From positions 299,003,466 to 299,067,465 of the forward strand of contig CM057009.1 of the NCBI GenBank assembly GCA_029891345.1: DNA of 64,000 nucleotides, read 5' to 3'. This stretch comes from Dryococelus australis. Taxonomy: Eukaryota > Arthropoda > Insecta > Phasmatodea > Phasmatidae. Of the stretch, positions 3,341-54,174 are shown piece by piece (the first letter of the stretch is position 1; the number at the start of each line of letters is the position of its first letter). The position numbers and the translations under genes are program-made. The notes under the pieces were generated by a model. That model did no database searches. It was not told where the DNA came from and saw nothing but the letters and a program-made list of their open reading frames with translations.

Positions 3341-5438
3341 CGTACGCTCCGAATATAACACAATGTATCTGTTTGAAGATTTCTAGTTGCCTGAGAAAAT
3401 GAGCAACTTATTCACAACTACTAATGTAACACATTAAAATGAACATTCACTTATATTTCACAACCTGTCCTGATATACTGATAAAAAAATTACTGTCACT
3501 ATCGCAAGCAGAGAAGTTACTGGAAACCAGAAACTCAGTAACAGTAGATAGAGCGAGATAACTAATGGCTTTGCAATAGCAGAAAATGCACACATCATCA
3601 CTATGTAAGAATATATACTTCTTATCTTTGTATGTGGGATGTGACACGGTTCAGAGGAAGGACAGAGCTAGACAACAGGTCTACAGGATGATGCTACATG
3701 ACCAAGCACTGAGACTGCAATTGTTTCCTTCACCAGACATTTCACCCTAAATATCCTCTGGGAATTGTTCATCCACGTAAAAAGGGTAATCTCACATAGA
3801 TATACAAGAAAATATTATTAATTAATTAATTAGGAACACTGTTGGAATTTATTACAGTCAAATCAATCACTTTGAAGCAGGGGTCATTCTGACACTCGTC
3901 TATCGTTATAGGTATAAGATACGTATTCGCCACGTTTTTGGACAAAAATATTTCGTTATTAAATTTGTATATTAAACTAGAGAAACCAGGCTTTCACTAA
4001 TTGTCTAAAACATAATGTTAGAAAACGTCAAGAAGGTTCTACTAATTCGAATCAGATATACAGATTTGGTGTCACGTCAAAGTATCTTAAGGGGTCAAAA
4101 TCACTCCCATGGTAGTTCTTGTGTTAAATCTCCATGATGCTGCAAGAATGACCTCTATAGGCAAGTTTCGATGCTGAAAAATAAACCAACCCAGACAAGA
4201 AACACAGTGTACAGAAGAGACAACATGAATAAAGATAACAGCCCAAAGTAATTACAAAGAAATAATTGTACATAAAGAGGATGATAAGAAATAGATAGGT
4301 AGGGTGGGAAAGAACAATAACGCCTCTAGTTGTTACAATGAGTCAAAATTGCACAACAAAAAATATTTCACCCCGCAACCCCGCTAAGGCTAAGGGTTGG
4401 AACCCCAGGAATTGGCTTAAACCCTGGTCGGAGGTCCAAACAAAAATCACATTCCCAAATACCCGTGCAGAAGTGCACAAACGAAATTGCCGAAGTAAAA
4501 TACTATTTGCAACAATTCATAGTCAAATTTGTTGGTGGTGGCACAATCTCTCCCATGATGGCGTCTGCAGCAGTGTGTCAGGACCTCAAACGTGCGTGCG
4601 TGCTGTCAGTAGTAGCTACAAAATTTTACATTCCGGTACATACATACAATACTCTATGCTTATACTGGATAGAAATATACTTCTCTTCTTCTCTACTTTT
4701 CTTCTCTTCTTTTCTTCTTCTCTTCCTAATTTCTACCCAATATGATCATATGATTTCGTATGAAACATTGTTTAGTATTAATTATTGTATCCATAATGTT
4801 CTGTCAGTATTCGATCTGGTAGTATTATTCGCTTGTCGTCCATCCATGAAAGTGCTAATTTATTTGTACATTCTGTGTAAATATCATGTTGATGCCATAT
4901 TATATTTTGAACTTTAACACGCCTGACTTGTTGTTGTGTCAACAATCTCTTGTAATCTTAAAAAGTAATTTTATTCTACAGACTTGTCTTTTGTACACAT
5001 TTGGCCTTTATTTAAATTTTGCCTCCACATATATAGCAGTATATTTTAGCACGCACCCCTACAAATTCGTACATTTACTCCCCACGACACTTGTCTTTAA
5101 ATTTACCAACAATCCTATTGTTGGTAGGAAAATAGCAGACATGAGTTTAAGGGGGGGGGGAGGGGGAGTACACACTGGTGTCGAACGCTCACATTAAGTC
5201 GGGTTCTGCAGCCATGTCCTGATATAAACCACTGGTATTTAAATCATGTATGTAGCTGTCGGTGTCCATGTAGGCCAGTTCAAGGTCATCTTCATAATTA
5301 TTCTTCACAACATCATAAAAGAATCTATATATCAGGGTCTTGGAGAGACTAGTACAGCAAAGCCTGTATAAATTGGTTTGTCAAATACTATTGTTTCCTT
5401 TTCCATCTTCACCAGCAGTGATATAATACACACATATA
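3341..5438. other. No gene seen; flank of the piggyBac copy
   Basis: AT-rich. It includes a pyrimidine-rich tract around 4680-4735 and a G-run near 5150-5172. Open frames of up to 150 residues here are biased in composition and overlap each other, and I recognise none of them. Confidence 0.45.
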
Positions 5439-5458
5439 TATGTATATATGTACACATA

Positions 5459-5530
<72 letters not shown>
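5439..5530. repeat. (TA)n microsatellite
   Basis: A near-pure TA run of about 60 bp (5465-5527), preceded by imperfect CATATATATGTATATATG copies. Confidence 0.95.
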
Positions 5531-5534
<4 letters not shown>

Positions 5535-6098
5535 GTTGGTCACTGAAATGTGGATTACCTATTAATTTCTTGACTCTTCATTCTGTGCATACCAGTTCCA
5601 TGTTCTGATGCTTTATTTTATTTTCCATTCATTTACCAAACATAGTATTGGTCATTAATTTATACAAATCTTTTTTAAAACTGTTGTTTGCTGCCTGTCG
5701 TTTTTTCGGTATTCAAATCAATATATGGTTTGATGCATGCCTCTTGTTCAAATTGAAGTGGACTATGTATTTTAGTTATTTTGAGCCCATGTTCCAGTGC
5801 CTGCTTCAAATTTCTTTAATACATAATAAAATTATTTTTATTTTCCAGAGTAGTCATAAGCTCTGGGTGCTTCGAGCCTACGGGCACTAGTTCGAAGGTA
5901 GAAATGGCAAGTCCTTGTGAGCTTCATGCAGATCTGCGGTTACTGCATATCGACTTCAAGTATGTAGCCTGTGATGCTGTCGTCGGGCACACCCATGACG
6001 TTGACGTCTCCCTCTAGCCACCGAAAATCACGCACAGGCAGAGGTAGAGACATTGCCCACCCGAACATATTATTTGCGTCCACATACTGGAGGTAGGA

Positions 6099-7241
6099 CT
6101 ATTCCTTGGGTACATCATAGGTGGTTGGTATGTACTTGTTTGTAACACTATAATGCTTTATATATCGTGCTACACCTCCCCTTATTGCCATCTCAATAAA
6201 CGCAAACATATCGTAATCAACAAGTAACTCTAAATTAACATTTGTATGTTTGAGCATAGCATCAAAGGAGAGGGCTGGTGCACTCACATATCAGACACAG
6301 TCGAGACCATAGATCTTGAGACATAGGCTCCTAAAATTCTCACACACATCTGATAACAATACTACATCAGTTTTCAAGTATATATCAGAATAATTGCCCA
6401 GAGAATTGCAGTGGAATTTCCGTCATATATTTTGCTCATGAGGGGTCTCGGTGGGTTAGCGATTCGCACGCTCGCCTTCTACCAAGACGAACCGGGTTCA
6501 ATCCCCGGCCGGGTCTACAGATTTTCGCAAGTGGGAATCGTGCGGGACGATGCCGTTGGTCGGCGGGTTTTCTCAGGGATCTCCCGTTTCCCCCGTACAT
6601 TCATTCCGGGGCCGCTCCATGCTCACTTTAATCACGCTCATCGGCTCTCAAGACCTCGCTGTTGAGAACCGCCCAAATCTCTTCACTCTTAACCCATTTT
6701 GCGCATGAACATAATCCTCGTCTGTAATGTCGGTGTCGTACAGCTTGTGGAATTATTCTTTCGATGGTAGCTGCACCTATTCCAGTTGCTTCAGTCCGTC
6801 TACATAATCGTAGGGAAACACGCCCTTTCTGGTAACGAGCTCCATTTCATTTGGGTTGAAGAATTTTGCTGTGTTTTTAAATTGGTCTCTTGGCAGGTTT
6901 TCGACGAGAGCGGCGAGGCTTCTAGACATGAAGTGGAAGGTGTCGATGAAATGTATTGAAAACTTTACCCCCAGAGATTTTTGAAATGTTATTAATTTTT
7001 CCTGTGTGTACAGGATTATGCCGATTTCTTTGCCGCGGTCGTCTAGTTGCTTGATTATGAAGTTTTCTTCATAGGCCAAATTCTGAAACAATACAGGCAG
7101 ACTTTTTGGACTACCATAGAGCAAATTACAATTGTTATGTGCAGGTACAATATATCGCCCTGTGATGTGACAGTGTTCCATTACTCTGGGGTTGCCATAT
7201 GTGAATGTTGTGGAGCGGTAGCAGCACTCGTCGGCAGTCAA
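6099..7241 (-). mobile_element. Polinton/Maverick fossil: protein-primed DNA polymerase B fragment
   Basis: Family role: Polintons are large virus-like DNA elements that carry a protein-primed family-B DNA polymerase. Two blocks in the right order on the - strand match its conserved features. The upstream block (7241-6777) has HCHITG, AHNNCNLLYG, FIDTFHFMSRSLAALVENL and RKGVFPYDYVDG, typical of the exonuclease-to-palm region. The downstream block (6287-6099) has APALSFDAMLKHTNVNLELL followed by an IRGG motif. A SINE lies between the two blocks. The copy is a broken, partial fossil with several breaks, and no capsid, ATPase, protease or integrase part was recognised nearby. It looks old. Confidence in the polymerase family is high; assignment to Polinton rather than another linear-plasmid or viral relative is inference. 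Confidence 0.85.
6441..6690 (+). mobile_element. tRNA-derived SINE, copy 1
   Basis: A tRNA-like head has an A-box-like GTGGGTTAGCGATTCG and a good B box, GGGTTCAATCCCC (6494-6506). The body follows: GTGGGAATCGTGCGGGACGA, GGTCGGCGGGTTTTCTC, CATTCCGGGGCCGCTCCATG, CGGCTCTCAAGACCTC. It ends with GAGAACCGCCCAAATCTC. Other copies lie at 20178-20376 (-), 45424-45682 (+) and 53930-54174 (-), with a tail piece near 57585-57640. This copy sits inside the Polinton polymerase fossil, so it is younger than that element. Confidence 0.9.
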
Positions 7242-7459
7242 ATGATTTAAAACTTTCAGGTTAGTTAGGGGTCACATTGGCTCAGTTACGTCGTATATGT
7301 ACATTACCGTATGTCCAATGTCAACTATCGTCTCGATAAATACTTTCTTCGCATCTTCCTCAGTGTATACTATCAGTCGATTGGACAGACTTGATGTTTT
7401 TGAAGCAGGAATAATACTATTGTACACGTTTACATAAAGACAAATCCTCGTGTTTCTGG

Positions 7460-7870
7460 TGTGTTAAATTTAAATATTTTAAAAATGCTTTTTAAAAATC
7501 TTATAATAATATATTTTCATAATTTTGTAATAAATATTAATAATTTTTAAATAACAAATTTTTCTGAATTTTTTATTTTTGAGGCCAAACATCAAATGTC
7601 AAGGTCAAAGGTCATATACCCTGCTCTCCTGACCCCTGGGTCACTGCTCCCGGTCACCTGACTCGCTGATCCCTGACCCTGGGTCGCTAATACCTCTCGC
7701 CTGCTCCAGGAAATATTGGGATTTTATAAGGAATTTTAAGGAAAAAAAGGCTAACTTTTAGGGAAAAGGGGGAATTTGTAGGGTGTTCTGATCGATTTTG
7801 AGGGGAAAAGGGAAATTTTGAGGGAAAAAGGTGGAAAAGGGAAATTCCAACATGGCAGCCGGCTGGCTCC
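7460..7870 (+). repeat. Dispersed fragment of the giant fold-back repeat family
   Basis: Resembles 30640-30920 in the arm of the 25.4-31.2 kb fold-back element. It has the same AT-rich stretch ending in TTTTTATTTTTGAGG/AGA, then an AGGTCA-rich sentence (CAAATGTCAAGGTCAAAGGTC), then CCTGCTC...CTGATCC...GCCTGCTCC..GAAA.ATTGG. It continues into a G-rich AGGGAAAA tract (7735-7845) and ends with an AACATGGC block. Confidence 0.65.
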
Positions 7871-7927
7871 TGGTTCCTACTTTCAGTATCCGTTGCACCA
7901 GACTTCCTATTTTCCTACTACTATGGT

Positions 7928-24030: not shown

Positions 24031-25411
24031 AAGTACCTACATAATATAAGGTAAAACAAGTAATTAAAATTTCAAACGACCAATTAGCGTGACAATAAAA
24101 CTTATTAAAGTAAAATTGAAATATTATTTAAACCTTCATTTTACCGTATAACTGTCGACATTAATCAAGTAATTCTTCGCAGAAATTAACATTCATTAAA
24201 AGCAACTAGCTGGCTAATATGTTACCAAAACCTGTCCGAATTCATCAAGTTTGTTGCCAAAGGTATGTAAAAATGCAACCGTTATACACCTGAATTCGGG
24301 CACGGCCTGATCGTTGAAACGATATATTATGTGATGGGTGTTTGGGAACATATGTGTCACGTACCATATCTGTGATCTCACGCCTTACAGATGAAGAAAT
24401 AAACCAATCCCCATTACGATAATTAAAAACTTGTACTTTAAAACTTAGTCCAAATACAGACGCTTCGCCGTGAAGTGTGTATATAAGACGGTTACAAGGA
24501 AAGAAAACGCCCCAATACATGTTCATAAATACAGCACCCTAAGACCTCGTTATGTAATACAGTTTTGGAATGTACAGGAAAAAAAAAGATGTGCTATTAA
24601 AGTGGTGTTTCACATATTTCAATTTATTATTGGAGTACTCGAAAGACATTTAAGAAGCGAAAGTCCTCACAAAATACCGTAACCACATATAATTATATTT
24701 TCTCTCTCTCTGAGTGTGTGTGTATGCGAGTGTGTGATACAGGTGCCTGCTAGTAATTCTTAATAAATATTTTCAGGCTTGTTATTATCAAATTGATTTT
24801 AACGTATGATCTGCTAATACAGTGTAGATATTATTCGCCCTCAGTCGACATGTTCTACCATCAATAAAATTTCCAAACCAAAAACAACAAATTCTAAGCT
24901 TCAAATTATTAACTGGTTTCATTTAATTTTTCTATTTATCGACGTACAAAATAATTATGAGTTTGAAGCACAACTTTAGTTTTACATCACTTGATATGGC
25001 ACCTATCGCAATAGCCTCACGAATCATTGTGAACGAAAGTTTATAGTGTGAGATCCCGTAAAGATAATTTTATAAGTATTTCTTCAAATAACTCACATCC
25101 AATTTTCCGTAGCAGCATTAATATTTGCAATATTTATGAGTCATTATTAGATTAAAGAATTATCTCGAAAAAAGAAGCAAGAAGTAACACATACAGTCTT
25201 AAAATTCCAATGCTGGACATTAAAAATATCTTTCAAGACATGAATTTAAAAGCGGGTGTTTGTGAACATTGGTTCCATCAGAGGGTCTTGAGCTACTAAT
25301 AACTTGTCAACTAGTAGCAGGAAACAATACTTTAATAACACATTCAATTAATAACATAATATTACAGACATATACATTCTATGGTCCATAGTAATAACGT
25401 ATGTAAATAGA
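24031..25411. other. No gene supported; one unrecognised - strand frame
   Basis: A 93-residue frame (24526-24245, -; GEASVFGLSFKVQVF..., DTYVPKHPSHNISFQ) has a protein-like mix but no recognisable domain. The rest is AT-rich single-copy-looking sequence. Confidence 0.3.
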
Positions 25412-25914
25412 AGGATTTAGTATATTGACGGAAAAGGGCGTCGGGCGTCGGATTCGGATTCAGCGGGCCCATCATGTTGTGACATCATCCGACAGCCATC
25501 TGGGAAGTCAATGACATTTTACCTCTGACACATGACCTTTGACTCCTAACATCCAACAAATTGCAAACAAATCCCAAAAAATTCCGAATAAGTCCAAAAT
25601 TTTTTATAAAAACTATTTAAAAAGGGCCCCAAAAATTTCCCAAATTTTCTTGAGCAGGCGAGGTGGACTCGTGACTCCGGCGAGGTGGATCAGGGACTCC
25701 GAGCCAGTAGAGCAGACCTTTGACCTTTAACCCCGAAATTTGACCTCAAAAATCCAAAAATTCCAAAACAATTCCAAAAAATTCGATAAAATACTAAAAA
25801 ATCCCAAATATTTATTATAAAAAATTATTACAATTTTTAAAATGGTTTTTATTAAAATATTATTAAAAAGAATTTAAAATACTTAACTTTATGGAGATCA
25901 CCGCTGTACCAATT

Positions 25915-26085
25915 ACCTATTCCATCTTGGTAGGTACAACTGACGATCATCTTCGTAGACGACCACCATCTTAGTAGGCGACCACCATCTAGGCATGCAA
26001 CCACTATCTTGGTAGCTGACCAACATCTTGGTAGATGACTGCCATCTTGGCAGGCTACCACCATCTTGGTAAACATCACCCATCC
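25915..26085. repeat. Minisatellite in left arm, unit about 18 bp
   Basis: About seven variants of CACCATCTTGGTAGGCGAC; it is the mirror of 30400-30600 in the right arm. Confidence 0.85.
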
Positions 26086-26089
26086 GTCT

Positions 26090-26690
26090 TCTTGGAAGCC
26101 AGTGACCTTGACCTCATGACATCGAATGACCTTAAAAACAAAAACTCGAGAAAAAATACATAAATGTCAGCAAGCATATTACACTACTAACCACTATCGC
26201 CATATTAGATTCAGACTAGCTTGACCTACATAAAATCGAGCAAGCATAATACATTGCAGACTACCACCACCATATTGGATGCAGGTAACCATGACCTTGA
26301 ATGAACTTGAAAACAAAACTAGATAAAATACATAAATGTCAACAATCTTAAAACATTACAGACTACTACCACCATATCAGATGCAGATAACATCGACCTT
26401 AACCCCATGACCTACATAGACCTTGAAAACAAAAACTTGAGAAAAAATAACTTAAATGTCAACAAGCATATGACATTATGAACTACTACCCCATATTAGA
26501 TGTAGACTACCTTGACCTTGACCCCATGACCTTGAATGAACATGAAAACAACTCGAGAAAAATGGCAACAAGTATATTATGATGCAGACTACCTAAAATA
26601 ATATTCTTTGTAGACTACATTTAATTAGACACCATGAACTTTAATAACCTTGAAAACAAAAACTAGGGGGAAAACTATGCGAAGATGCAG
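26090..26690. repeat. AGGTCA-rich tandem array, left arm (about five units)
   Basis: Units of about 110 bp contain GACCTTGACCCCATGACCTT, then GAA.GA.CTTGAAAACAAAAACT, CGAGAAAAAATACATAAATG and AGACTACTACCACCATAT. Read on the - strand these are AAGGTCATGGGGTCAAGGTC. Confidence 0.9.
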
Positions 26691-27611
26691 AAGCTAGCCG
26701 AGACAATCCAACTTTCTCGGAAGCTGCTGTCAAACTAAGTCTCTCAGTTAGTTTACCTCCCTACTGCTTATAATATACGAGTATGCAGGCCCCATTACAT
26801 CATATTGACTTCGAAGCAATCATATTGTACCATTAAATCATTGTTCGGACACTGATCAGATAATTACCGAGTTACCTTGTGAGAGAATCTGACCAATCGC
26901 GTGAAGGCATCGAGACATCACACACGCGCGCAGGCAGGCTTTAGATGCTAGTTCCCTGATCAAACTACAGTGTAGTTATATCTTAAACATTTTCTTCGAG
27001 ATAAGTTCTCCACTCAGCTTAAAATCATGGTCACACCTAAAGCAGACAACTGAACCCAGCAGACTGACTCATAATGACCTCTTAATGCCCACTAAATGAC
27101 CCCTTATTGCCCCAAAATTACCCCAAAACGAATCTACCACCAACTTCTGGACCCCTTAAAGACCCCTAGTTATCCCAAATGACCCTAAATGAGCCCTAAC
27201 TTATCCCTTATAACACCTAATGACCCCTGTTGACCCATCAGCTCATGACACATTGACCCATGACTCATTGACCCATGATCCATTGACCCATGACACATTG
27301 ACCAATAGCACAACCTGGTCTTTGTACTGAACAACGCTGCAACATGGCAGACCACCACCATGCTTCCCAATCGGTCGTCGCGCGAAAAGGACTCTTAGTA
27401 CAGACAGCCCTCTCATACCGATGTACATTTTGAACATAGGAGAAAACTCAATCGCAGAATCGGCACTGACGTCAGCTAGTTAGCGATGATGCAGGTCGTG
27501 GCTCCATGGTCATCGAGATAAAATACAGCCCTTCGTATTTGAAATTTATCTTCGTGATATGGGAGCATTCTGAGAAATCACAAATACTCGTTCGCCCAAG
27601 AAGAAAAAAAC

Positions 27612-28125
27612 ACACAGATGAAGAATTTATTATATGCATAATTATGTATATTCTTATCTTATATATACTTAGGTATAAAATACATTAACAGTTAATTTTA
27701 TATTTATATAGCTTTACATATACATAATTATGTACATGATAAATTGAAAATAATTTAATATTTATATAATTATACCTATACATAATTATGTAAAAAATTA
27801 ATAGTAAATAATATTTTTCCATGTTAATATGTACATACTTATGTACATAATTTTGTATATATTGAAAATGATTCTATATTTACATATTTATGTATACATT
27901 ATTATGTATAAAATAAATTTGAAATAATTTGTTATTTCCACATTTATAAGTACACACACACACACATATATATTTTTATAAATAATTATATATATATACA
28001 TAATTATTTATAAAATGAAATTAAAATAATTTCATATTTACACATTTATATACCCATACATATTTATGTATCATATATATTTAAAATAAATTTATATCTA
28101 CATATTTATATACCTATACATAATT
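27612..28125. repeat. AT-rich loop of the fold-back element, repeat unit about 80-90 bp
   Basis: Recurrent TATACATAATTATGTA cores (a near-palindrome) with GAAAATAATTTAATATTTA spacers, about six copies. Confidence 0.8.
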
Positions 28126-28959
28126 ATCTGTGTGTTTTCTTCTTGGGCGAACAAATTTTTTGGGTTTGCTCAGAGTACTCCCATACTGCGAAGATGAATT
28201 GGGAATGCGAAGGGCTGTTTTTGATCTCGACGATCAAAGAGCTGTTACCTGCATCATTGCTGACTTGCTAACGTCAATGCCGATTCTGCGATCGAGTATA
28301 TAGCTATGTTCAAAATGTACGTCGGCATGAGAGGGCGGTCTGTACGAAGACGTCCTTTTCACGCGACGGCCGATTGGGACGCATGGTGGTGGCCTGCCGT
28401 ATTGCAGCATTGTTAGGTACGAAGTCCAAGTTGTGCTATTGGTCAATGTGTCAATGGGTGATATGACATTGGGTCATGGGTCATTGGGTAAATAGGGGCC
28501 ATTAGGGGTTATTGGGGGTCATTTAAGGTCATTTGAATCATTAGGGGTCATTAAGGCGTCAGGGTGTTGGTAGTGGTGGTGATGGTGGATTAATTTTGTG
28601 GTCATTTAGGGATCATCTTGTGGTAATTATGAGCCAGCCTTCAGGTGTCAGTCTGCTGGAGTCATGTTTCATTTAGGTGTAGCTACGATTTAAAGCTGAA
28701 GCTAGCTGAAGCTGTTGAAGGTATAACTACATGGTAATTTGATCAACTATCTAGCATCTAAACATGGCCTACCTGCCTGTGTGTGATGTCCCAATGCCAT
28801 TACACGATTGGTCAGCTGCAATCACGCGGTTTCTCGGTGAATGGCTATTGGGTGTCAGAACAATGTATTTAAGATGCAAAACACTTGGTTCAAAGTCAAT
28901 ATGATGTCATAGGGCTTGCACACTCGTATATTACACATAGTAGGAAGGTAAACTGATGA

Positions 28960-30400
28960 GAGGCTTAGTTTGACAGAAGCTCCTGTGAAAGTTGGATTGT
29001 CTTGTCTAACTTATGCATCTTCAAATAGTTTTTCTCTAGTTTTGTTTCCAAGGTATTCAAGGTCATGCGGTCATGGTCTATAGCTAATATGTAGGTAGTA
29101 GTTTGTAATGTAATATGCTTGTTGCAATTTATGTGTTTTTTCTCGAGTGTTTGTTTTCGAGGACTTTCAATGTCATTCAAGGACTTTCAAAGTCATGGGG
29201 TTAAGTTCAGGGTAGTCTAATTATAATATGGAGGTAGTAGTCTGTAATGTAATAAGCTTGTTGACTTTAATGCACTTTTTCTAGAGTTTTTATTTTCAAA
29301 ATTATTCAAGGTCATGGGGTGAAGGTCGAGGTTGACTGTATCTAATATGGCTTTATTAGTTTGTAATATAATATCCTAGTTGACGCTTATGAATTTTTTC
29401 TCGAGACTTTTGTTGTCAAGATCAGTGAAGGTCATGGGATCAGGTTTAGGTCATCTGCATCTAATATGGTGGCAGTAGTATGTATTGTAATATACTTGAA
29501 GACTTTTATTTTTTTCGAGTTTTTGTTTTTAAGATTATTCAAGGTCATGGGGTCCAGGACGAGGTTGCCTGCCTATAATGTAATGAAATATGTTTGTTAA
29601 TTTTTATGTACTTTTTCTAGAGTTTTGATTTTCAATATTATTCAAGGTCATGGAATGAAGTTCGAGGTTGCTTGCATCTAAAATGGTGTCAGTAGTCTCT
29701 AATGTCATATGCTTTTTGATTTTTATATACATTTATAGAATTTTTGCTTTCAAGATCATTCAAGGTCATGGGGTCAAGGTAAAGTTAGCCTGCATCTAAT
29801 ATGTTGGTAGTTTTCTGTATTATAATATACTTGTTGATTCTTATATATTTTCCTCGAGATTTTTGTTTTCTAGGTCATTCAAGGTCATGGGGTCAAGGTC
29901 ATTGTTACCTGCAACTAATATGGCATTTGTATTCTGTAAAGCCATATGATTGCTGAGTTTTATAGATTTTTCTGGAGTTTTTGTTTTCAAGGTTATTCAA
30001 ATTCATGGGGTCAAGGTCGATGTTCCTGCATCTAATTAGGTGGTAGTAGTCTGTAACGTAATATGCTTGCTAACTTTTATGTATTTTTTCGAGTTTTGGT
30101 TTTCAAGGTCTTTCAAGGTCATGATGTCATGGGTAGGTCATCTGCATACAATATGATGGCTGTAGTCTGTTATGTATTATGTTTGCTGACTTTTATGTAT
30201 ATTTCCTCGCGTTTGGTTCTCAAGGTCATTCAAGGTCATGGGGTCAGGGTCGAGGTATTCTGAATCTAATATGATGGTAGTAGGTAGTAATGTAATATGG
30301 TTGTTGACTTATATGTATTTTTCCTCGACTTTGGTTTTCCAAGGTCATTCGAGACCATGGGGGCAAGGTCAAGGTCACTGACTTCCAATATGGTAGATGG
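28960..30400 (+). repeat. AGGTCA-rich tandem array, right arm (about 12 units)
   Basis: The phrase TTCAAGGTCATGGGGTCAAGG, exact or varied, starts near 29056, 29186, 29305, 29425, 29538, 29641, 29759, 29878, 29997, 30112, 30229 and 30349, a spacing of about 103-130 bp. Each unit also has TCTAATATGGTGGTAGTAG, TCTGTAATGTAATATGCTTG and TTTTCTCGAGTTTTTGTTTT. Each intact phrase contains AGGTCA-tg-GGGTCA-AGGTC. Confidence 0.92.
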
Positions 30401-30600
30401 GCAATAACTACCAAGATGGTGGTCTTTTGCCAAGATGACAGTCGCTTACCAATATGGAGGTCGTCTTCCAGTATGGCAGTCGCCTAACAAGATGGTGGTC
30501 GCCTACCAAGATGGTGGTCGCCTACGAAGATGGTGCTCGCCTACCAAGATGGTGGTTGCCTACCAAGATGACAGTCGGTTGCACCTACCAAGGTGGTGGA
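30400..30600 (+). repeat. Minisatellite in right arm, unit about 18 bp
   Basis: About nine copies of CCTACCAAGATGGTGGTCG variants. Confidence 0.9.
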
Positions 30601-31434
30601 ATGTGAAATTGGTATGGGTTGACCTACGGAAATTAAAGTAATTAAATCAATTTTTTGAGATTTTTTAAATAATTTAAATAATAAATATTTAACAATTTAT
30701 TAATAATTTTTAAATAATTGTTAATCATGTTTTTTGAGATTTTTGGATTTTTTTCGGAATTTTTGATTATTTTAATTTTTTATTTTTGAGATTAAAGGTC
30801 AAGTTCAAATGTCAAATGTCCTGCTCAACTGGCTCGGAGTCACTGATCCACCTCGCCGGATTCATGAGTTAACTTCGCCTGCTCCGGAAAAATTGGAAAA
30901 TTTCTGGGGGTCATTTTTGAATAATTTTTTTAAATAATTGTAATAATGTTTAAATTATATATTTTTCGGCATTTTTCTAGAAATTTTTGGGTTTCGGGGT
31001 CAAGGGTCACTTTCAAAGGTGCAGGTCAAAGGTAAAGGTCAAATGTAAAGGTCAAAATTCATGGGTAAGCTGTAAAAAGTCAATGACTTCCAAGATGGCG
31101 GTCGGGTGATGTCACAACATGGCGGACCCTCTGAATCCGAATCCGACGCCCGATGCCTTTGTCCATCAACATACTAAATCCTATTTCTTAGATATATCTT
31201 CTTATTCTAGCACAAAGTTCAATAATGGCTACGTATACGCCACCTGTTATCTCGACAATGAACTATGCATTCTCTCTGAAAGCTGCGGGCTATACTGAAC
31301 ACGTCCTGCACTCTTATGGCAGAATGTATCACTACTCGCATGGTCTCGAGAGTAGTTCCAAAATCTTCTAATATGGTCAGCATGTGCTACAAAACATTTT
31401 ACATCTTAAATTCTGTAACTTTTCCATTAAGAAA

Positions 31435-32620: not shown

Positions 32621-33850
32621 TTAGTATGCCTAGTTGGTATGGTTTATTGTTATAGTCAGTTCGTATTTATGTCTAGTATTGTTGACTCGCATGTTTGGCT
32701 TGTATGGAATGATTGTGTGGATACTCTTGCCAATTTGAATACCCAGTCGTTCTTGCTGGGATGTTGGCCTGGCTGGTTGGTATATTAAGCTGGTAAAGGT
32801 TATCTGTATGGTAGATCAGAAATGATGGTTTGTTAACCTGTGTTGAGTGATCTGGTCGGATGGTATAGACATTTGGTAGGGTAGGCTTTTTTTTTGGTTA
32901 CTTTAACGCAAATGATTCGACATAATGGTCGACTAGGCTTATAACGAATCTGGGCAACAGTAAGATATATTGGGCTGATCCAGCCAATGATGGACGTAAA
33001 CAATACAGGTTTAGAAAGCCTAACACTAACAGAATGCAAATGATTTTACCGACAATATATTCAGTCCAGCTGGAGTCAGCGACGGTATCCCCAAAGACGA
33101 AGTCGAGATGTGCGTTGGCCGCTGGCGCGCCATTAAACAAACACTTATCCTTACTGTATACTCTCCAATATCTCGCTAGATCTAGCAGGTATTTAAAATT
33201 TCTGGAGACATTCAATGCGGTGCGAAAGTATATGCGCAATTAGGCACAACGTATATAATAACGTGCATACTATGTTGAAGGTGTCAAATTCACTATTATT
33301 TACCGGAATGTTAGCTACGAGGGTCAGGAGAGAGCAGACAGTATATTACACGTTAACACCAGACAATGAACTGTGACATTATGCGACTTTGTCTACATTA
33401 TTTATCTGCAGAAGTCGCGATGTTGCATGACCAACAGAAAAAACACGAGCGATGATGAGAGGTTAGAGAATGGAGTGTCGCATGCTTGGGGGTGATGAAG
33501 GTCGTTGAGGGGGTCGAGTTATGGTGAGCAAATAGTGAGGGGGATGTGAGTCAGGAGTTTGGTTGCAATAGTTCGTGGGCAGTGAGGGTGGTCAAGCTAT
33601 TGTAAGTGGCGAAGACGTGAAGAGTAGAGTGGTGTGATGGAAATGAGGGCGGAGGGAGACATGTGTTATGTAAAACTCATAATTCGCTTTTTGATGGGGG
33701 AAGGGCGTGATCATCTGGCAGATTGATCACTATATTACCAATTATTTATTGACAATGGGTTTGAGGGGAATTTACTACTGTAATCATTCACCTGCTGATA
33801 GTCATATCAGCTGTGCTCGGCCAATGTTACGAGAATCGAACCATCTGTGT
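32621..33850. other. No gene supported; G-rich purine stretch and a weak - strand frame
   Basis: 33450-33670 is a G-rich strand of GGGTGATGAGG-like phrases. The - strand frame 33239-32898 (113 residues) contains a hydrophobic segment (YIVGKIICILLVLGFLNLY) that could be membrane-spanning, but it has no family match or splice evidence. Confidence 0.3.
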
Positions 33851-34510
33851 CACCCACATCCAGTATATCATATGAGGTCAGTAAAGTAATGTTCTCCACA
33901 ATTTTTAAGTTTGTGGTCAATTATTGCGATTTTTTAGATTGTTCAAATTCACTGTCACAGGTGTTAAAATCAAGGTCACCCCCATCAAAAATGTATATGG
34001 ACATCAATGCCCTTTTTTACTCGTTCTTATAATATTTTCGAATTTTGCGAATTTTTTTTATTTTAATTTTTTTTAATTTTAAGTTCAAAGGGGATCAATA
34101 TCAAGGTCGTCCACATCAAACATGACGGTTTGGGTAAGTCATATAACTTTATCTTCGTATTTACCGAGGGTTTTTTTTTTTTAGTTGTATATGTTTGTCT
34201 CGATTTCTCGAGGTTAAAATTTCTGCTGTCAAGGTCAGTTTCACTTACATCCAAGATAGCAGTCTGAGTACGTAATGTAATTTTTTCCTCTATTTATACT
34301 AGTTTTTAAACATTGCTCTCGGTTTTCCTAGTTCAAGGACACCAAGGTCAAGGTCAAGTTCACCTACAACCAACATGGTGGTAGTGGTCAATAACGCAAT
34401 ATTTTCCACGATTTTTAGATTTTTCATTTTTTTCCGAGAGTTTTCTAGATAGCTTATTTTCTATGTCACAGTGGTGTCCATATCGCCCACATCCAACATG
34501 GTTGTTAAAG
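33850..34510 (+). repeat. AGGTCA-containing tandem array, dispersed relative of the fold-back arms
   Basis: Five to six degenerate units of about 115 bp, each with (ATCAAGGTC/CAAGGTCAAGTTCACC), ACATC(C/A)AACATGG, GTAATGTAAT.TTTTCC and a TTTTTAGATTTTTC or TCTCGA tract. The layout matches the 28960-30400 array, but the units are more diverged. Confidence 0.75.
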
Positions 34511-34741
34511 GTTAATAATGTACCCAAAAATGGCAGTCCCACAACGATAAACTAGACGCTCAGGTGTGGTGTCAATCACGAGAGCAGATGGCTTCTTGCA
34601 CTGGATACTTAATGCCTGTGATATATCTCTCCAAGTCCTACTATTAACATTGATATCGACCCCTAGAATAATATTCTCATTTTTCATAGTGTAACATCTA
34701 TGTGAGTTTAATGATAAAATGCAATGTAAGTTTGCCAACAT
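34505..34741 (-). other. Unrecognised 78-residue open frame
   Basis: Has a protein-like composition (ENIILGVDINVNSRTWRD, KKPSALVIDTTPERL). No family is recognised and no splice signals are evident. It may be a fragment of an unidentified mobile element. Confidence 0.18.
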
Positions 34742-36477: not shown

Positions 36478-38089
36478 GTGAGGTTAGATATTAATTCATA
36501 ACTAGATGTAACTTAAATGTACAATAAATACGTTCTTAAATCTGCAGTCCTTTAGTCACTGTTACTAAAAATGTAAGAACCGGAGTATAAAATTACATTT
36601 TAGAACATAATTCTTAAGGCTCTCATAGAATTCCTGCACTTGTGTAATTTTCATATTGTATTTAATTTCTATGGTCTGGTGCTGTTATGACCGTGACTAA
36701 ATCCTTATGAGGTTTACCTCGAGTAAACTTGGCCATGGAATAATCATAAACCTGAAATTAAAATTTATGAGTAATTGTACATATTATGAAATTAACCCTA
36801 CAAAATTAAAAAATAATATTATGATACGCAAATAATACATGGGATACTGTATCTCTATACATGTAATCTTGATTAACCAGAGTTTTTAAAAATAATACAT
36901 GCAAGCAATAGTTCAGAGAAGAAGGAATGTCTTCCATTCAAGAGAAAAGAACGAATGGCAAAAATTTTGCAAAAAAAAATAAAGGTTGAATATAACTTAT
37001 TGCGCGCTGTAGAACAGTTTTTTCGAGGGCGTTAATAGTATTGTCCTTTCGTAACTGTTCCACAGAACCGCTTAATGTGTTGAAAATATTTGTATTTCCG
37101 CCCGACAAATTGCAATCACGCGAAAACCTTCTGGGGAAGAAAATTTATCTCGCTGATATTTACCCTTATTTATTGTCTAGAGATTCCTTCCACATACTGT
37201 AGATACGAGTCGTATGATTATGAATGTTCTGAGCCAATGCATTTAAATGGAAGTGTGTGAAGGGGTTGTTGCTGTGACTGTGGCTAAGAGTCTTAATGAG
37301 GGTTGCTTTTTCTGTGGACTTCAGGCCTCTGCATGGCTCGGGATCCTCCTCGGCTACCCGAAGGTGCTCGGCAGTTAGAGCCACTAAATCTTCACTCATA
37401 TATGTCTGGAGTTGGCGGCTATATTTTCTTTATAGGCATAGGGTATGTCAAATCGAAAATATGTATTTGTTATAGAATTTAAATAAGTCTTCACTTAATT
37501 TATTTTTTTTTTAAATTTGAAGCGAAATCGTTCATAGAGTATTGCGAACGCATGCACATGTCTCTCATTCAGTTACTTCATTTCCGGCATCCACTCTCGA
37601 AATATAATTAAAACCCAATGTCAGAATCTGCAAATTATCTATTGCCTATACTGTTTTGTAGGCATAAAATAAAACTCAGATTTTGTTAAAGTATTTAACT
37701 GCGACCAATCCAAGCCCATTATAAAATTAGAGACCATGTGCACAAGTATTTTATAATCATGATATGTATCAGCATCAACCAACACTTTTATAGGAACAGT
37801 TGATTACAATTTAGTTATCACTTGTGCTAGACTCATGAGACTTGAAATGTACAAGGGCAGCTCGAGCGATAGTCAGTCTTATTTTCTGTTCTCCATAGCC
37901 TGAATATCAAATTTCCAACAAATTTCGCCGACACATGAATGGCTACAGAAGATCGGGTAAAGTGATTATGTATAAGGGGGGGGGGGTGTTAGACATAGAT
38001 TTTAAAATGGTGGTCAATAAATATTACATAATTTGGCATATCAGTGTAACAATTTAACTAATTTAAATATAATATTTAATGTGACTATA
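36478..38089. other. Intron sequence; one dispersed repeat, otherwise nothing seen
   Basis: Mostly AT-rich. 37166-37400 (-) contains an open frame of 77 residues, but the same sequence recurs at 43440-43650 (+): GAGCACCTTCGGGTA, AAGTCCAC.GAA, TTTAAAT.CATTGG.(C/T)CAGAACATTCATAA. It is therefore a repeat, not an exon. Confidence 0.55.
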
Positions 38090-38545
38090 CGCATTATAAG
38101 CAATGTATACAAATAATCTTTTTTTTTTTTTTGGCAATTTTGTAAGGTAGCAATCATCAAGAAAATAAGGTTTTTATGCAATATCTCGGGGAACAATCAA
38201 ACTATTTCCACTGAAACAGCACAGAAGTTACGCTACGATGAGCCGAATACAATAATGGTTTTTAAGTGGCTCAGAAGCTTTTTTTTAAAATGATAGTCAT
38301 ATAAATACTCAAGGTCAGTAAACCATATCAGAAAAAACATGAGACTGTTTAAATCCGAAGTTTATGTTCTTATTCCTACCCACGTGATGCAGTTTATTGC
38401 ATTCTAGCTTATTTAACGAGTGTTTCTGGGTTCGAGTCCCAGGTAAGGCATTGTATATTTTAGTTGACTCGGCAGTATAGCATATTTATCTGGTTTCGTC
38501 TCTAATGGCATTGTTGTAAACGAGACATCAAGTCCTTCCTAATAT
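38090..38545 (+). repeat. 285-bp family unit with tRNA-like B-box end, locus 2
   Basis: TTTTGTAAGGTAGCAATC and ATATCTCGGGGAACAATCAAAC match the array units. The end carries a good B box in TTCTGGGTTCGAGTCCCAGG (38428-38447), as in the other two loci. Confidence 0.7.
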
Positions 38546-38634
38546 CTAAGCTTTTAAGAACTTCATTAAATTCTATTTGCACGCAAGTAGAGGAAAGTAG
38601 TTTTATAAGTTATATCGGTATTCTCTTGTTTTTA

Positions 38635-41600
38635 CTTAAAGTCTTCATTAATATTGTGAATGTAGATCCATACTTCTGTATTCGAGTACTCATTGCATCA
38701 ATTTAAATATACAAAGGGAAAATAATATCAAATACAAAAATTACGAGAAAATAATTTTTATATAAAAGTAATATTCTTATTTGCACATCAAAATATCAGA
38801 AGTAAGCATTTCATCACATCATGTGATATAATACCAGTTCATTCAGTTCATTGACGATTGAAGATATCTCGTTTATGTGTGAGAAATATCTACCTCTTTG
38901 CAATCAATCGAATGTGTGGGTGTGTCCATCAACAAGTCGTTTCGGGTCTTCGGTAAATATCTAGCTAGTGTTCTTCGCGTCTTCTGCCTTCTTCATGCCA
39001 CACGTTGCAGCATACTTTTGGAGGGAAGTGCCAGAGCATCGATTAAATCGCCGTCATCGTCAGCATTAACACTGTCTTCATGATCAGCTTCAACTCATGT
39101 TTTCTTTTTGACATTAACTTTTCTCTTCTTTGTAACAGGAGTCACCGGGCCATCATCCGTGTTTAAAGCCGATGGTAGTTCATTATGAAGTCCATCGTTT
39201 TCACACTAAAAAGTTGTAAGTGTATATTACTTGCGAAACTACTGCACGGCGCAGGCCACTCATTCCGTCTTTAGCAATAACTGTCTCATCATAATCGCCT
39301 GTGGAATCACTACTCGTCGATGCAGCAAGAGTTATTGACACAACTTGTTGTCTCCCAAGAGACGAATCTATGCGAACCTAGAGGTGATTCGTCAATGTAA
39401 CGCCTTCGATAAAATGCATGTTTCCATTGCCGTAGTATTTCCTCATGCGAGAAGGACTATTCGTACAGGCAAGTTCGATTATTTCCACGAGTGTTTACCG
39501 AAGATAAAAATTCCAACGCAGAATCGATACTGACGAATATTATGCAGCGTTGATGGAAGTCGGGCTCCATGTTTGTCGAGGTCAAGGGCATGTGATCATA
39601 TTTACAGTTCTTCTTCACTGTGCTGTGAGAGATCGCTTCCAAATAGATGTTCACCTTACGGTATAAGTACATCAACTAAGCTACTAATGACAGATATTTT
39701 TCTATATAAACAATATTTTACCTCAGTATTTATTACACCAAAAAAATCGTAACTGATAGCAAAACAATACTATTGAGATATTTTGTTCTCACATAGGACT
39801 TGATTCAAATAATCAGGTCCTAATTTTGCTTACATTTTCCATTATATTTTATGCATTGATTTACTCTTAAGCATGTTTATAAACATTATGCGAAATAAAT
39901 GTCAACAGGTTTTTCTAAGTCGGAAACAGTATTAATATTGTGTATAATTTCGGGACCCGAACATATGTCCCTACACTGTAACTTACCTTTAGAAATCACT
40001 TAAATGTATATATTATGCGTGTATAAGCACGTAAACAGACAGTTAATCATGTACGAACCTAATCAAATATGATTCAAAACTTGATCCGGTATTCGAACTG
40101 TGTACCATACATTACAATATAACATCTTTATTCTTCGTTCAAAATTCAGTTAACAGCCTACATTATATGTTTAATTAAATATGTCATTTTTCACTAAAGG
40201 GTCACTTAGGTGGTTTCTGGATGTAGACTAGTATAATGATTATGGGAGATTTGGCACAGTGGCGTGTGGCGTCGGAGTTTGGAGCTGTTCATGCTCTGTC
40301 ATTCCGGTCAGCCGACGGCCATATTGTCCGCCATGTTTATGTCGGAGACATTGACTGCACCTTGGAACTTGACTCGATTGATATTAACATTGACAATTAC
40401 GAAATTTCCTCAAACGTAAAAAAATGCAAAGAAATTTATAAAAATATATAACAATGGTCTATACAAAAATTATAAAAGTTTTTAATAAATTTATTTAAAA
40501 CTTACTTTTCCAATAATTTCCTCACAACCACATCGAGCAGGTGACTGACACCCTCAAAATCTTATTGGTTATTTAGTCGGCAGCCACCCAACCCCTCCAG
40601 TAAAGCACACTGTCTTAACATTCCTCCCTAATCCCATACCATCAAACCTGAAACCTCCCCCCCCCCCCCAATTAGTCGAATTTGCTCCATCTTTAGCTTT
40701 TCGCCTACAGGCCGAACACCTCCTACTCCAGCCCATCTTAGCTGACAAATATTGGAAAAAATTATTTGTTTTGAATCAAATTAATTGTTATTTAAAATTT
40801 TTGTCGATTTTTGCATGTCTTCAGTACAGAATACATTCCACAAGAGTCAGAGTTAAGTTAAAAGGATTTCGTATACATCGAACTTCCAACATGTTTTGAA
40901 AACTTATGTCACAACACACTCACCTTGTGCCAGAAAATCCCATTATAATTATACTAGTTTACATACCAGAAACTCCTAAGTAACACTTCAGTAAAAGATG
41001 CCAGAATAAATCACACAAAAATACATGGTGTATGAAACGTTTAACACAGGATGTTACACAAATTTTGTACATAGAATGAAGATGTGATAGTGAGATATAG
41101 GGCCCACAATTCAAATATCGAACCGAGTTTTTAATCATCTTTAAGAAGTTCGTACATCATTTTCTTTCTTTTTACATGCTCATAAACACCTAATACATAT
41201 ATTTAAGTAGACTCCAAAGATGAGGTACTGTGTAGGGACCTAAGCTAGAGAGCCAATATTATAGACAGTATTGCTACTATTTCGGACTTAGAAAAACTCT
41301 GGTGTATTTTTTTGCAATATGTTTATACATATTCTGAAAAGTAAATGAATGCATACTAAATTTATGGAAAATGTAAGCAAAAAGCAGTCTCGATTGTTTA
41401 AAACATCTACGAGCTATTTTATTGGTGGGATTGTTATACTATCAGTTACGAATTTTTTATGTTGTATCAAACATTCAGGTAAAAAAATCGTTAAATATCA
41501 GTCATCAGCAGTTCAGTTGATGTTCTGATATTGTGAGGTGAACATCGATTTGGATTAACTCACTCGTCATACATCGAAGATATATTATAAATACGAACGC

Positions 41601-42520
41601 CTGTCTCTGACCTCGACGAATATGTAAGCGCTACCTACATCACCGCTACCTGATTGCAGTCAGTGTCAATTATGCGATTATACTCATTGAGATGAGAGAA
41701 CCGCCTTTAGGAAGATTCCTTTACAGATGACGAAATATTACGACAATGGAAACATGAAGTTCATCAAAGGCGATACATCGAAGAATCACGCCTATATTCG
41801 CAAGGATTCGTCTTTTGAGAGATGTGTTTTGCCGCCAATACCTCTTGGTGTATCGATGGGTACTAATTCAACAGACGATTATGATGAGACTGTTTTTGCT
41901 AAAGATGCAATGAATCACCTGCATCCTGCAGTAATTTCATGCTAAATATACAATTGCAACATATTCGTGTGAAATCAATGAATTTCCAAATAAACGACCA
42001 TCAACTTGAAATACTGATGACGAACCTGCGACTTCTGCAGCAAAGAAAAATAAAATTGATGTAAAATGCGAAACATGAGGTGAAGATTATCATGAAGACA
42101 GCACTGATGAAAATGAACATGACAACAGTGCTGATACTGAAGATGATGGCGATTTCCTTAATGCTCTGATGCACCGCTCCAAACGTATGCTGAAATGAGC
42201 GGCATGAAGAAGGCAGAAGACACTAAGAAAACTGGTTACATATTTACCGAAGACCTGACTGGTGGAGATTTCTCACACATAATCAAAATACAGTTAATTA
42301 TAAACTGAACTGCAGGGATTACTTCACATGACGTGATGATCTGATCATTTCTGAGATTTAAATGTGCAAACTAAGAAAACATTTTATTTTATAAAACAAT
42401 TTTTTCCCCCATTATTTTTGTGTTTTATACTGTCTTTCCATTACATGTTTCAAGAGATGCCATGAGAACTCGATTACTATTTATGGATATACAACAGATC
42501 ATTAATGAAGACTTAATTAT
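38635..42520. repeat. Inverted duplication, arms of about 1.55 kb, spacer about 0.75 kb
   Basis: The left arm (about 38635-40222) and right arm (about 40968-42520) are diverged reverse complements along their whole length. Landmarks are CATTAATGAAGACTT at the outer edge, GGCATGAAGAAGGCAGAAGA, GATTATGATGAGAC, TACGACAATGGAAACATG and, at the inner edge, CCAGAAACCACCTAAGTGA. Each arm has a protein-like core reading outward from the spacer; the right arm's best frame is 41727-41945 (YYDNGNMKFIKGDTSKNHAY, TDDYDETVFAKDAMNHL). Downstream both arms have an acidic stretch (DEDDGDF(L/I)(N/D)AL) out of the main frame. The frames are broken in both copies and the family is not recognised. The spacer has one 71-residue frame (40236-40451). 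Confidence 0.85.
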
Positions 42521-42649
42521 AAAGAATGCATGAAAAGTTGATTGCATAAAAACATCAATATGGTCGTTTAGTTCAAATTGTCTAGACATTTGGCCAATGA
42601 ACTTTTTTTATATGTATGGTTAGGAGACAGAGAACAAATACATATTTTG

Positions 42650-42930
42650 ATTATGGATTGATGGCTGACCAAAATATTGGACGAAAGATTACAAGATTGA
42701 TCGGAAGTTTGGAATATTAATGGAATGATTGCAAGATTGACAGTATGACTGTATGAAAGATTGAAATACTGACGGAAATATTGCGAAATATTGATGGAAA
42801 TTTTGGAAAGATTGATTGAAAAATTGGAAGATTGACGGAAAGATCGTGCGATTGATCGAAAATTGGATAAACTGTTGCAAGATTGACAGATCTATCGAAA
42901 GTTTGGATAATTAATGAATTGATGATCACA
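42650..42930 (+). repeat. Minisatellite, irregular unit of about 12 bp
   Basis: Many variants of GATTGA.GGAAAATTGG. The open frames on the other strand (repeated Phe/Gln/Ser) are by-products. Confidence 0.8.
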
Positions 42931-43439
42931 AAGAGCACTGAAGAAATGACTATCACCCGAACTGTTCTTGTAAATTTCTCATCTCAAGGGCCTAGCACTA
43001 TTGGTATTTAAATTATAAACAAGTTTGCCTATAAAATGTTGGTCGATGCTGTTCCATACATGATTACAACATACTTACGCAGATGGTCGTTGCTTGTATA
43101 ATGGGTTTGAACTGACAACATGTACATACATTAAAAAACATTTCAGTAGCACATTTATGCTTACAAAACAATACACACAGTGGATAATTTGCAGATTCTG
43201 ACATTGTATAATAATTAAATTTCGAGAGAGGATACAAGAAATAGGGTAACAGAATGAGAGGCTTTTGCATATTTTTACAATACTTTATGTACTATTTCGG
43301 TACAAATTAAAAAAGCAATTAATTTGTTTTGTTAAATACAGAATTTGTTTAAATTTGACAGTAAATAAAGATTTTCGATTTCACACATCCTAAATCTATA
43401 AAATCAATATGGCCAACGAATCCCCAGAAATAGACATGT

Positions 43440-49254: not shown

Positions 49255-49420
49255 CAAACAAGATCGGCAATCTTTCACTGGAGTTGCTGTCAAACTAAGC
49301 CTCTCAATTGGCATCATTATTGGTTATAATACACGCGTAAGCAGGTCCTATGATGTTATATTGACGTTCAACTAATCGTATTGCACCATTAATATATTAT
49401 ACATTATTTATAATATATAA
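49255..49420 (+). repeat. Dispersed fragment of the fold-back element's unique block
   Basis: GCTGTCAAACTAAGCCTCTCA, TTATAATACACGCGTAAGCAGG and TCGTATTGCACCATTAA match 26700-26850 inside the giant fold-back's left arm in the same order. Confidence 0.8.
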
Positions 49421-53930: not shown

Positions 53931-54174
53931 GGAGAGTGGAGTGGAGAGATTTGGGTAGCTCTTAACATCGAGCTTTTGAGAGCCGATGATGATGAAGAGA
54001 GGTGAGTATGGAGCAGCGCCTGGGGAAACGGGATTTCCCCGAGAAAGACCGCCGACCAGCGAAATCGTCCGGCACGATTCCCACTTGCGAAAATCCGGTG
54101 ACCCAGCAGGGGATTGAGCCCGGTTCGCCTTGGTGGGAGGCGAGAGTGCCAATCGCTCAGCTACCGTGGCCCCG
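53930..54174 (-). mobile_element. tRNA-derived SINE, copy 4 (full length)
   Basis: On the - strand: CACGGTAGCTGAGCGATTGG (A box), CCGGGCTCAATCCCCT (B box), TTTTCGCAAGTGGGAATCGT, GGTCGGCGGTCTTTCTCGG, GCGCTGCTCCATACTCACC, CGGCTCTCAAAAGCTCGATG and GAGCTACCCAAATCTCTCC. It has the best-preserved A box of the four copies. Confidence 0.92.

Follow-up and report, generated by a model that had tools for sequence, protein, structure and literature searches.

Architecture of the fold-back element

A window of 64,000 nucleotides from Dryococelus australis (the whole stretch of DNA analysed here) contains, at positions 25406-31188, a fold-back element of ~5.8 kb. The element is real, dispersed and old. 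It is probably a non-autonomous relative of Polintons (also called Mavericks), which are giant virus-like transposons, and would have been moved in trans. Comparison of the region with itself, using BLAST, returned an inverted repeat over 25412-31182. The first-pass annotation had given this same span and had the inverted repeat right. The true ends lie 6 bp further out on each side, since the family end motif adds 6 bp outside 25412 and 31182. The outer 132 bp (25412-25543 against 31182-31051) are 84.8% identical, ungapped. Further in, a unique block (26633-27619 against 29067-28126) is 75.8% identical over 1003 columns (435 bits), and the remaining colinear segments, in mirrored order, are ~75-77% identical. 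Note that the alignment used for the arm layout had loose gap costs, and that its weak stretches reach ~0.70 identity from those costs alone. Arm divergence of 15-25%, with indels, together with dispersed relatives, is evidence against an assembly-artefact palindrome. The first pass had named such an artefact as grounds for refutation.

The left arm, on the forward strand, starts with a terminus (25406-25546) made of the motif AATAGAAGG and a conserved terminal repeat. Inward of this are a 19-bp minisatellite (CATCTTGGTAGGCGACCAC; 25948-26071, Tandem Repeats Finder), an array region with few 118-119-bp units (26104-26632, where 26289-26551 was called as 2.2 copies) and the left copy of the unique block (26633-27619). 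The right arm, on the reverse strand, runs from the other block copy (28126-29067, by BLAST) through an array of ~10 units with oriented TCAAGGTCA sites (29068-30373) and a minisatellite of 8.4 copies (30411-30570) to the right terminus, with motif CCTATTTCT (31045-31188). Within the right array, Tandem Repeats Finder called 3.0 copies at 29224-29579 and 6.7 at 29579-30373. Hence, array length is very unequal between the arms, with ~2 units called on the left and ~10 on the right. The two termini score E 2.9e-40 (left) and E 1.2e-41 (right) against a terminus profile that was itself built with this copy included. Immediately outside are TATGTA (25400-25405) and TAGATA (31189-31194), a possible decayed 6-bp target-site duplication.

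Termini, minisatellites, 118-bp arrays and unique block are all in mirror order, as first described. The central AT loop, thought to be mirrored as well, is not. This centre (27620-28125; GC content 0.14) contains direct 58-60-bp repeats. Its inverted self-alignment scores 316, where shuffles average 297 (sd 21; z 0.9), and its direct score is 421. Because the inverted score is no better than that of shuffles, and is below the direct score, we rejected a mirrored loop and treat the centre as a spacer outside the mirror. The AT-rich centres of two other fold-backs, L050 and L019, have inverted z values of 4.0 and 4.1, still below their own direct-repeat scores. Each arm corresponds to the other all the way from its outer end up to the spacer, with no terminus recognised near the centre. 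No usable gene is apparent between 25406 and 31188. Consistent with the initial report that no transposase was seen, no open reading frame (ORF) of at least 120 amino acids lies inside the element.

Termini and target-site duplications

The first 120 bp of the element were used to search the genome (3.415 Gb; 646 contigs, of which the largest are chromosome-sized). Of 303 first-look candidates, 40 were scored as matches, with identities as low as 75%; two of these are the element's own ends. We fetched 21 termini, 20 with ~1 kb outside and 9 kb inside, and then one more. Coordinates in loci L009-L028 are given with the searched terminus on the left. In the family alignment, the start lies a few bases outside the searched end, at AGTAGTAGG. 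This motif begins 10 of the 21 termini exactly, and 14 match it at 8 or more of nine letters, with a shift of up to 14 bp allowed (13 without L023, where the match is 8 bp out of register). In the element itself, AATAGAAGG agrees with AGTAGTAGG at 7/9 letters on the left, and CCTATTTCT agrees with CCTACTACT at 7/9 on the right.

Four of the 21 loci yield five terminus pairs. Three pairs are flanked by perfect 6-bp duplications: GGCGTC in L014 (2587 bp), CTTAGC in L015 (3546 bp) and TACGCG in L026 (1819 bp). The chance of a perfect 6-bp duplication is 0.00024 for each. Target-site duplications, which had been proposed as a check, are therefore present in relatives of the element. The flanks of the fold-back L050 (ATACTA and ATACAA) agree at 5/6 letters. 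As supposed at first pass, the element belongs to a spreading family: its terminus is dispersed genome-wide, related complete copies have 6-bp duplications, and sister fold-backs occur elsewhere.

In the excerpted text of one Maverick study, the end motifs are (AG)3//(CT)3 and (AGT)2//(ACT)2, with perfect 6-bp duplications (PMC8097293). It is mainly because the ends and duplications fit these excerpted motifs that we file the family with Polintons. At the family level, both the (AGT)2//(ACT)2 ends and the 6-bp duplications are found; the copy at 25406-31188 has 7/9 letters at each end. No superfamily had been named before. Polinton/Maverick is likely, to judge from (AGT)2 ends, from duplications of 6 bp and from the gene pieces in relatives described below.

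Gene remnants in the element and its relatives

Both copies of the unique block hold a remnant of a zinc-finger-like gene, detected by tblastn and reading outward. The left remnant (27274-27507, minus strand; 41%, E 4e-11) reads toward the left end and the right remnant (28260-28358, plus strand; 58%, E 2.7e-6) toward the right end. Since both arms hold the remnant, the duplicated unit is one gene-bearing end that reaches inward past the array. Three other fold-backs, L023, L050 and L051, also have a zinc-finger-like piece in both arms. The block is abundant: 641 bp of the left copy gave 5277 first-look candidates genome-wide, of which 40 were scored.

Pieces of Polinton-type genes were searched against the 21 loci. 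They lie inward of the terminus in 10 of these, a count that excludes L014 and L021, where the gene is outside the inward part or beyond a second end. Note that L015, L018 and L023 supplied the gene queries and match by construction. By gene, ATPase-like pieces are in six of the 21 loci (two being query sources), a zinc-finger/tail protein is in nine, and PolB is in two. For the zinc-finger/tail gene, seven loci have it inward, against 1.4 expected from the density of first-look candidates (P 0.0007, a rough estimate). Without the query's own locus, the count is six (P 0.003). The protein has a CxxC...HxxxxC pattern, recognised by eye, and an acidic tail, and its Pfam matches are only weak. 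Genome-wide, 144 matches were scored among 25,657 candidates.

L015 (C10:9842200-9852100) is a complete 3.5-kb copy with a perfect duplication. In it, ATPase-like pieces, tail pieces and a zinc-finger-like ORF recognised by eye run in the same direction; the ATPase query came from this locus. The arrangement points to adjacent genes, or to a single gene, close to one end of a parent element. Three ATPase-like pieces were compared with Pfam, and the third, which has no P-loop, matches Pox_A32 alone. In L025, a PolB piece above the PF03175 cut-off (E 8.1e-7) lies ~5 kb inward of the locus's one terminus. For the PolB fragment at 6780-7271 of the window (minus strand), 13,624 candidates yielded 150 scored matches. 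Three of these places, C1:151.72M, C3:185.67M and C16:44.34M, overlap matches above the PF03175 cut-off. Given the many PolB and zinc-finger matches, Polinton-like remains are abundant in this genome. No P-type family was hit among the sample of ORFs scanned with Pfam.

Other fold-backs and the history of the arms

Three block queries, with 40 candidates scored for each (of 5277, 6092 and 4605), revealed four distinct inverted pairs within 3 kb, oriented as at 25406-31188. These are C1:171.51M, C17:124.17M, C3:327.27M and C7:75.99M. Among the matches listed, no close pairs are on the same strand or face the opposite way, save split pieces of one match. Similarly, the 144 zinc-finger hits include three pairs within 10 kb, all divergent, one of which is the query's own locus, L023. 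Two fold-backs share the layout of the element. Both ends of L050 (C1:171.51M) are terminus-like (E 5.4e-9 and 2.5e-5); its left arm has six array units and its right arm one or two, the block is in both arms and the centre is AT-rich. L051 (C17:124.17M) has both block arms, an AT-rich centre and, on the right, arrays with the 19-bp repeat. L023 (C7:36987800-36997700) contains a near-perfect palindrome at 2507-5720 without an AT spacer; its arms are 99-100% identical at the centre and 81% outward. Gene conversion from the centre could produce this outward fall. Self-alignments of L011, L016 and L024, at 62-63%, were not counted as palindromes, since AT-rich sequence and loose gap costs suffice to give such values. 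L011 nevertheless has one stretch at 81-86%.

A tree of block arms joins left and right arm as sisters in three fold-backs, C7 (96% identical), C3 (96%) and L019 (88%), with supports of 99, 93 and 89. For the element itself, whose arms are 74% identical, pairing is recovered only as an unrooted split. The single-arm locus L014 is placed among the fold-backs, with low support (64-65). Across six fold-backs, arm identity ranges from 74% to 96%. Either arms are equalised at each transposition cycle or palindromes form repeatedly. Under both routes, arm divergence would date each copy, and that at 25406-31188 would be old.

A separate observation concerns C1:139708365-139717901. Here, two copies of the zinc-finger-like gene are 8 kb apart and divergent, with identical scores and stop counts. 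This is possibly a very young, large palindrome.

Origin of the fold-back layout

If the element is, as seems probable, an old non-autonomous fold-back relative of Polintons, each arm would be one Polinton-type end, composed of an (AGT)2-type terminal repeat, a 19-bp minisatellite, a 118-bp array and a block with the zinc-finger remnant. Two such ends would face each other across the AT-rich spacer. Replication and insertion would be provided in trans by Polinton proteins, namely a protein-primed PolB and an RVE-type integrase. A single-stranded intermediate could fold back and copy itself, so that the arms would become identical in each cycle and would drift apart after insertion. The conserved core of the 118-bp unit may, by analogy with Galileo, be a protein-binding site.

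Several results weigh against this explanation. Some concern the ends. In 17 of the 21 loci, the terminus profile found no second terminus within ~9 kb; hence, most genes lie inward of one end only and are not shown to lie between two. Two of the five terminus pairs (L011 916/9844 and the outer L026 pair, 912/8004) have no duplication, agreeing at 2/6 letters, and were not taken as elements. The element's own flanks, TATGTA and TAGATA, agree at only 4/6 letters (chance of at least four, 0.038).

Other adverse points concern the genes. For the ATPase-like ORFs of L015 and L018, matches to Pox_A32 (E 0.0021-0.0078) fall short of the cut-off, and two of the three ATPase-like pieces are matched equally well by generic P-loop families. 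The integrase-like piece of L025 was seen by eye only and has no Pfam match. PolB is absent from the copy at 25406-31188, and its presence in two of the 21 loci, against 0.75 expected, is not above chance (P 0.17). Reversing the approach, we scanned 2.5-kb stretches upstream of 20 PolB hits with the terminus profile as a route to an autonomous partner. This was unsuccessful: no terminus was found within 2.4 kb, the one internal match being weak (L046, E 5e-5), and the stretches contained no ATPase or zinc-finger piece. The control is itself weak, with 2.4 expected at the inward-of-terminus rate (P 0.09). The first pass had suggested a search for a partner sharing the GGGCGTCGGATTCGG end. Fragments of it may have been met, as ATPase-like, zinc-finger-like and PolB pieces in stretches with this terminus, and no intact autonomous partner was seen.

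The remaining difficulties come from the sister fold-backs, of which three of the five with flanks read lack a terminus on at least one side. In L051, the left arm ends before the array, and a terminus was recognised at neither end of the stretch. In L023, only one side retains array and terminus, the other stopping before the array. L019 likewise keeps both on a single side, with a short array piece opposite. Furthermore, the arms of L050 (80%) pair in the tree at only 77 and are equally close to the right arm of L051 (81%), while the L051 arms (79%) do not pair.

A plainer version of the same explanation, to which we give a good chance, if somewhat short of even, is that the arms are ordinary long terminal inverted repeats of a non-autonomous Polinton. 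The array would have expanded, the middle would be short, and the ends would be homogenised in the normal way. The short, duplication-flanked copies L014 and L015, with two ends unlike in length or content, fit this, as does the unequal array number between the arms of 25406-31188. However, the mirrored part holds a gene remnant besides repeats, so the duplication extends past the array.

We regard as rather unlikely the proposal that fold-backs are integrated snap-back genomes of a protein-primed, virus-like Polinton. Here, the 3' end would fold back during strand-displacement replication, copying itself, and the resulting palindromic genome would integrate, with palindromes arising repeatedly from elements that have a single arm. 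Defective genomes of adenoviruses are snap-back palindromes of this sort, with the same end twice. The proposal is compatible with a fold-back relative of Polintons moved in trans, being a stronger version of its copying step. Pairing of arms within C7, C3 and L019 is as it would predict. So too are the central identity of L023 (99-100%, with no AT spacer), the place of L014, single-armed and with a perfect duplication, among the fold-backs at low support, and the single orientation of all close pairs observed. Conversely, the AT-rich centre occupies an equivalent position in the element, L050, L051 and L019, and this argues for one inherited design. In L023, the drop to 81% outward does not look like the product of one event, and three of five fold-backs lack a terminus. 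An extension of the idea, which we offer as speculation and think unlikely, is that fold-back Polintons are fossil snap-back genomes, by-products of protein-primed copying with both ends kept, parasitic on a virus-like parent and integrated repeatedly. If so, one host genome would hold a dated series of genomes of the defective-interfering type.

We consider it very improbable that the element is a Foldback of the P superfamily (Galileo-like) or of Mutator-like type, unrelated to Polintons and with the gene pieces as chance neighbours. Its architecture is like that of Galileo, Tetris and Tm1; taken by themselves, the PolB and ATPase pieces are weak evidence, and the genome abounds in relatives of these genes. 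Against this stand the 6-bp duplications and (AGT)2 ends, and the zinc-finger/tail gene, which is inward of termini above the density expectation and is inside the duplication-flanked L015. Finally, two independent, opposite insertions of one abundant family, or an assembly artefact, can hardly be credited, given arms that match from outer end to spacer with no terminus in the middle, sister fold-backs with the same layout, close pairs that face one way, and arm identities of 74-85%, too diverged for a read artefact.

Oriented half-sites in the arrays

Over the initial 500 bp of 20 loci, TGACCT is present at 6.1/kb on the inward strand; the opposite strand has 0.1/kb and the flanks 0.29/kb. 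The element contains 15 copies of TCAAGGTCA, against 0.06 in shuffles; tandem duplication accounts for much of this. Within the element, conservation along the unit peaks in the core around TCAAGGTCA (0.92-0.94, compared with 0.77), a figure with a mild bias, as units were cut at that core. Between elements, two TCAAGGTCA sites are conserved at 0.83 and 0.85 (mean 0.74), and the nine letters that score highest (0.87) form an adjacent T-rich stretch.

The strand-oriented TGACCT/TCAAGGTCA half-sites, at 29150-30373 and in the termini of 20 loci, resemble nuclear receptor response elements; we take TCAAGGTCA to be the binding sequence of receptors of the FTZ-F1/ERR type. Alternatively, TCAAGGTCA could be a putative site for the element's own zinc-finger protein, by analogy with the Galileo transposase and its binding to terminal repeats. 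Searches of viral contigs with the 118-bp core (exact 22-mer), of plasmids with the region, and by Rfam and tRNA scans gave no match.

Further elements in the window

Three other places in the window had been listed as dispersed relatives. All are related to the element, each through a different part. At 7463-7922 (minus strand; profile E 7e-4) is a single terminus with a perfect CCTACTACT end at 7914-7922. At 33844-34522 (plus strand) is a degraded fragment of the array family, with one unit match at E 1e-3 or better, and at 49268-49402 (plus strand) a fragment of the unique block, at 72%. AT-rich matches at other places in the window reach 95 bits at best, much as in a reversed-sequence control (best 84 bits), which gave at least 15 rows, those listed all in the AT-rich centre.

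Broken DNA-polymerase-B-like ORFs (5192-7463, minus strand; PF03175 E 0.0064, below the cut-off) adjoin the 7463-7922 terminus. With no terminus found in the stretches preceding 20 PolB hits, a deletion or a nested insertion may account for the arrangement at 5192-7922.

A second palindrome (37497-43324; BLAST segments of 72-81%), a relative separate from the element, lies ~6 kb downstream. A zinc-finger-like gene reads outward in both of its arms (38844-39470, minus strand, and 41646-42254, plus strand). At its ends, no terminus of the 25406-31188 family was recognised.

Two further observations concern other repeats. A transposase remnant at 1674-2303 (minus strand) matches PF13843 (DDE_Tnp_1_7, E 1.6e-22), a family that we take to be piggyBac, making the remnant presumably piggyBac-like. 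Positions 6442-6593 and 54022-54173 are copies of a dispersed repeat, 83.6% identical, with a tRNA-like internal promoter seen by eye. This is perhaps a short interspersed element (SINE); ARAGORN called no tRNA in it.

Comparison with known systems

With long inverted ends, internal tandem repeats and a short middle, the element at 25406-31188 is of Foldback type. Tlr elements also have long inverted ends with 19-bp tandem repeats, and differ in that their host is a ciliate. They are described, in the excerpt compared, as virus-like relatives of Polintons in Tetrahymena (PMC4028283). Likeness to Polintons and Mavericks themselves lies in the (AGT)2 ends and 6-bp duplications, as excerpted from PMC8097293, and perhaps in the PolB and ATPase-like pieces in stretches with the family terminus. 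The differences are that the element has a gene remnant only, palindromic arms, and 118-bp and 19-bp arrays. It is also smaller, at 5.8 kb against the 15-30 kb given in the excerpt of PMC8504770, where the term foldback refers to Drosophila elements.

Galileo and its P superfamily relatives make target-site duplications of 7-8 bp. Those of the family described here are 6 bp, and its end motif is another. Galileo is otherwise similar, in that its long, internally repetitive inverted ends resemble Foldback (PMC3573991, in excerpt), and its transposase binds sites in the tandem repeats of those ends (PMC3688188, likewise). Other named fold-back elements are Tm1, of the Mutator/Foldback family (PMC3169594), and Tetris (PMC4079207). 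Tm1 is filed under Mutator by the title of its report, and in the descriptions compared neither it nor Tetris has a Polinton link.

In the excerpts of the open-licence PMC literature searched, no fold-back Polinton is described, and fold-back forms are tied to P- and Mutator-type transposons (PMC3573991, PMC3169594). A Polinton version would add a superfamily with protein-primed copying, and so a ready mechanism for fold-back by self-copying. If arms start identical, as the sister pairs suggest, each copy would be its own clock, and the history of activity could be tested. The fold-back-like Galileo, according to the excerpted report, produced chromosomal inversions in Drosophila (PMC3573991).

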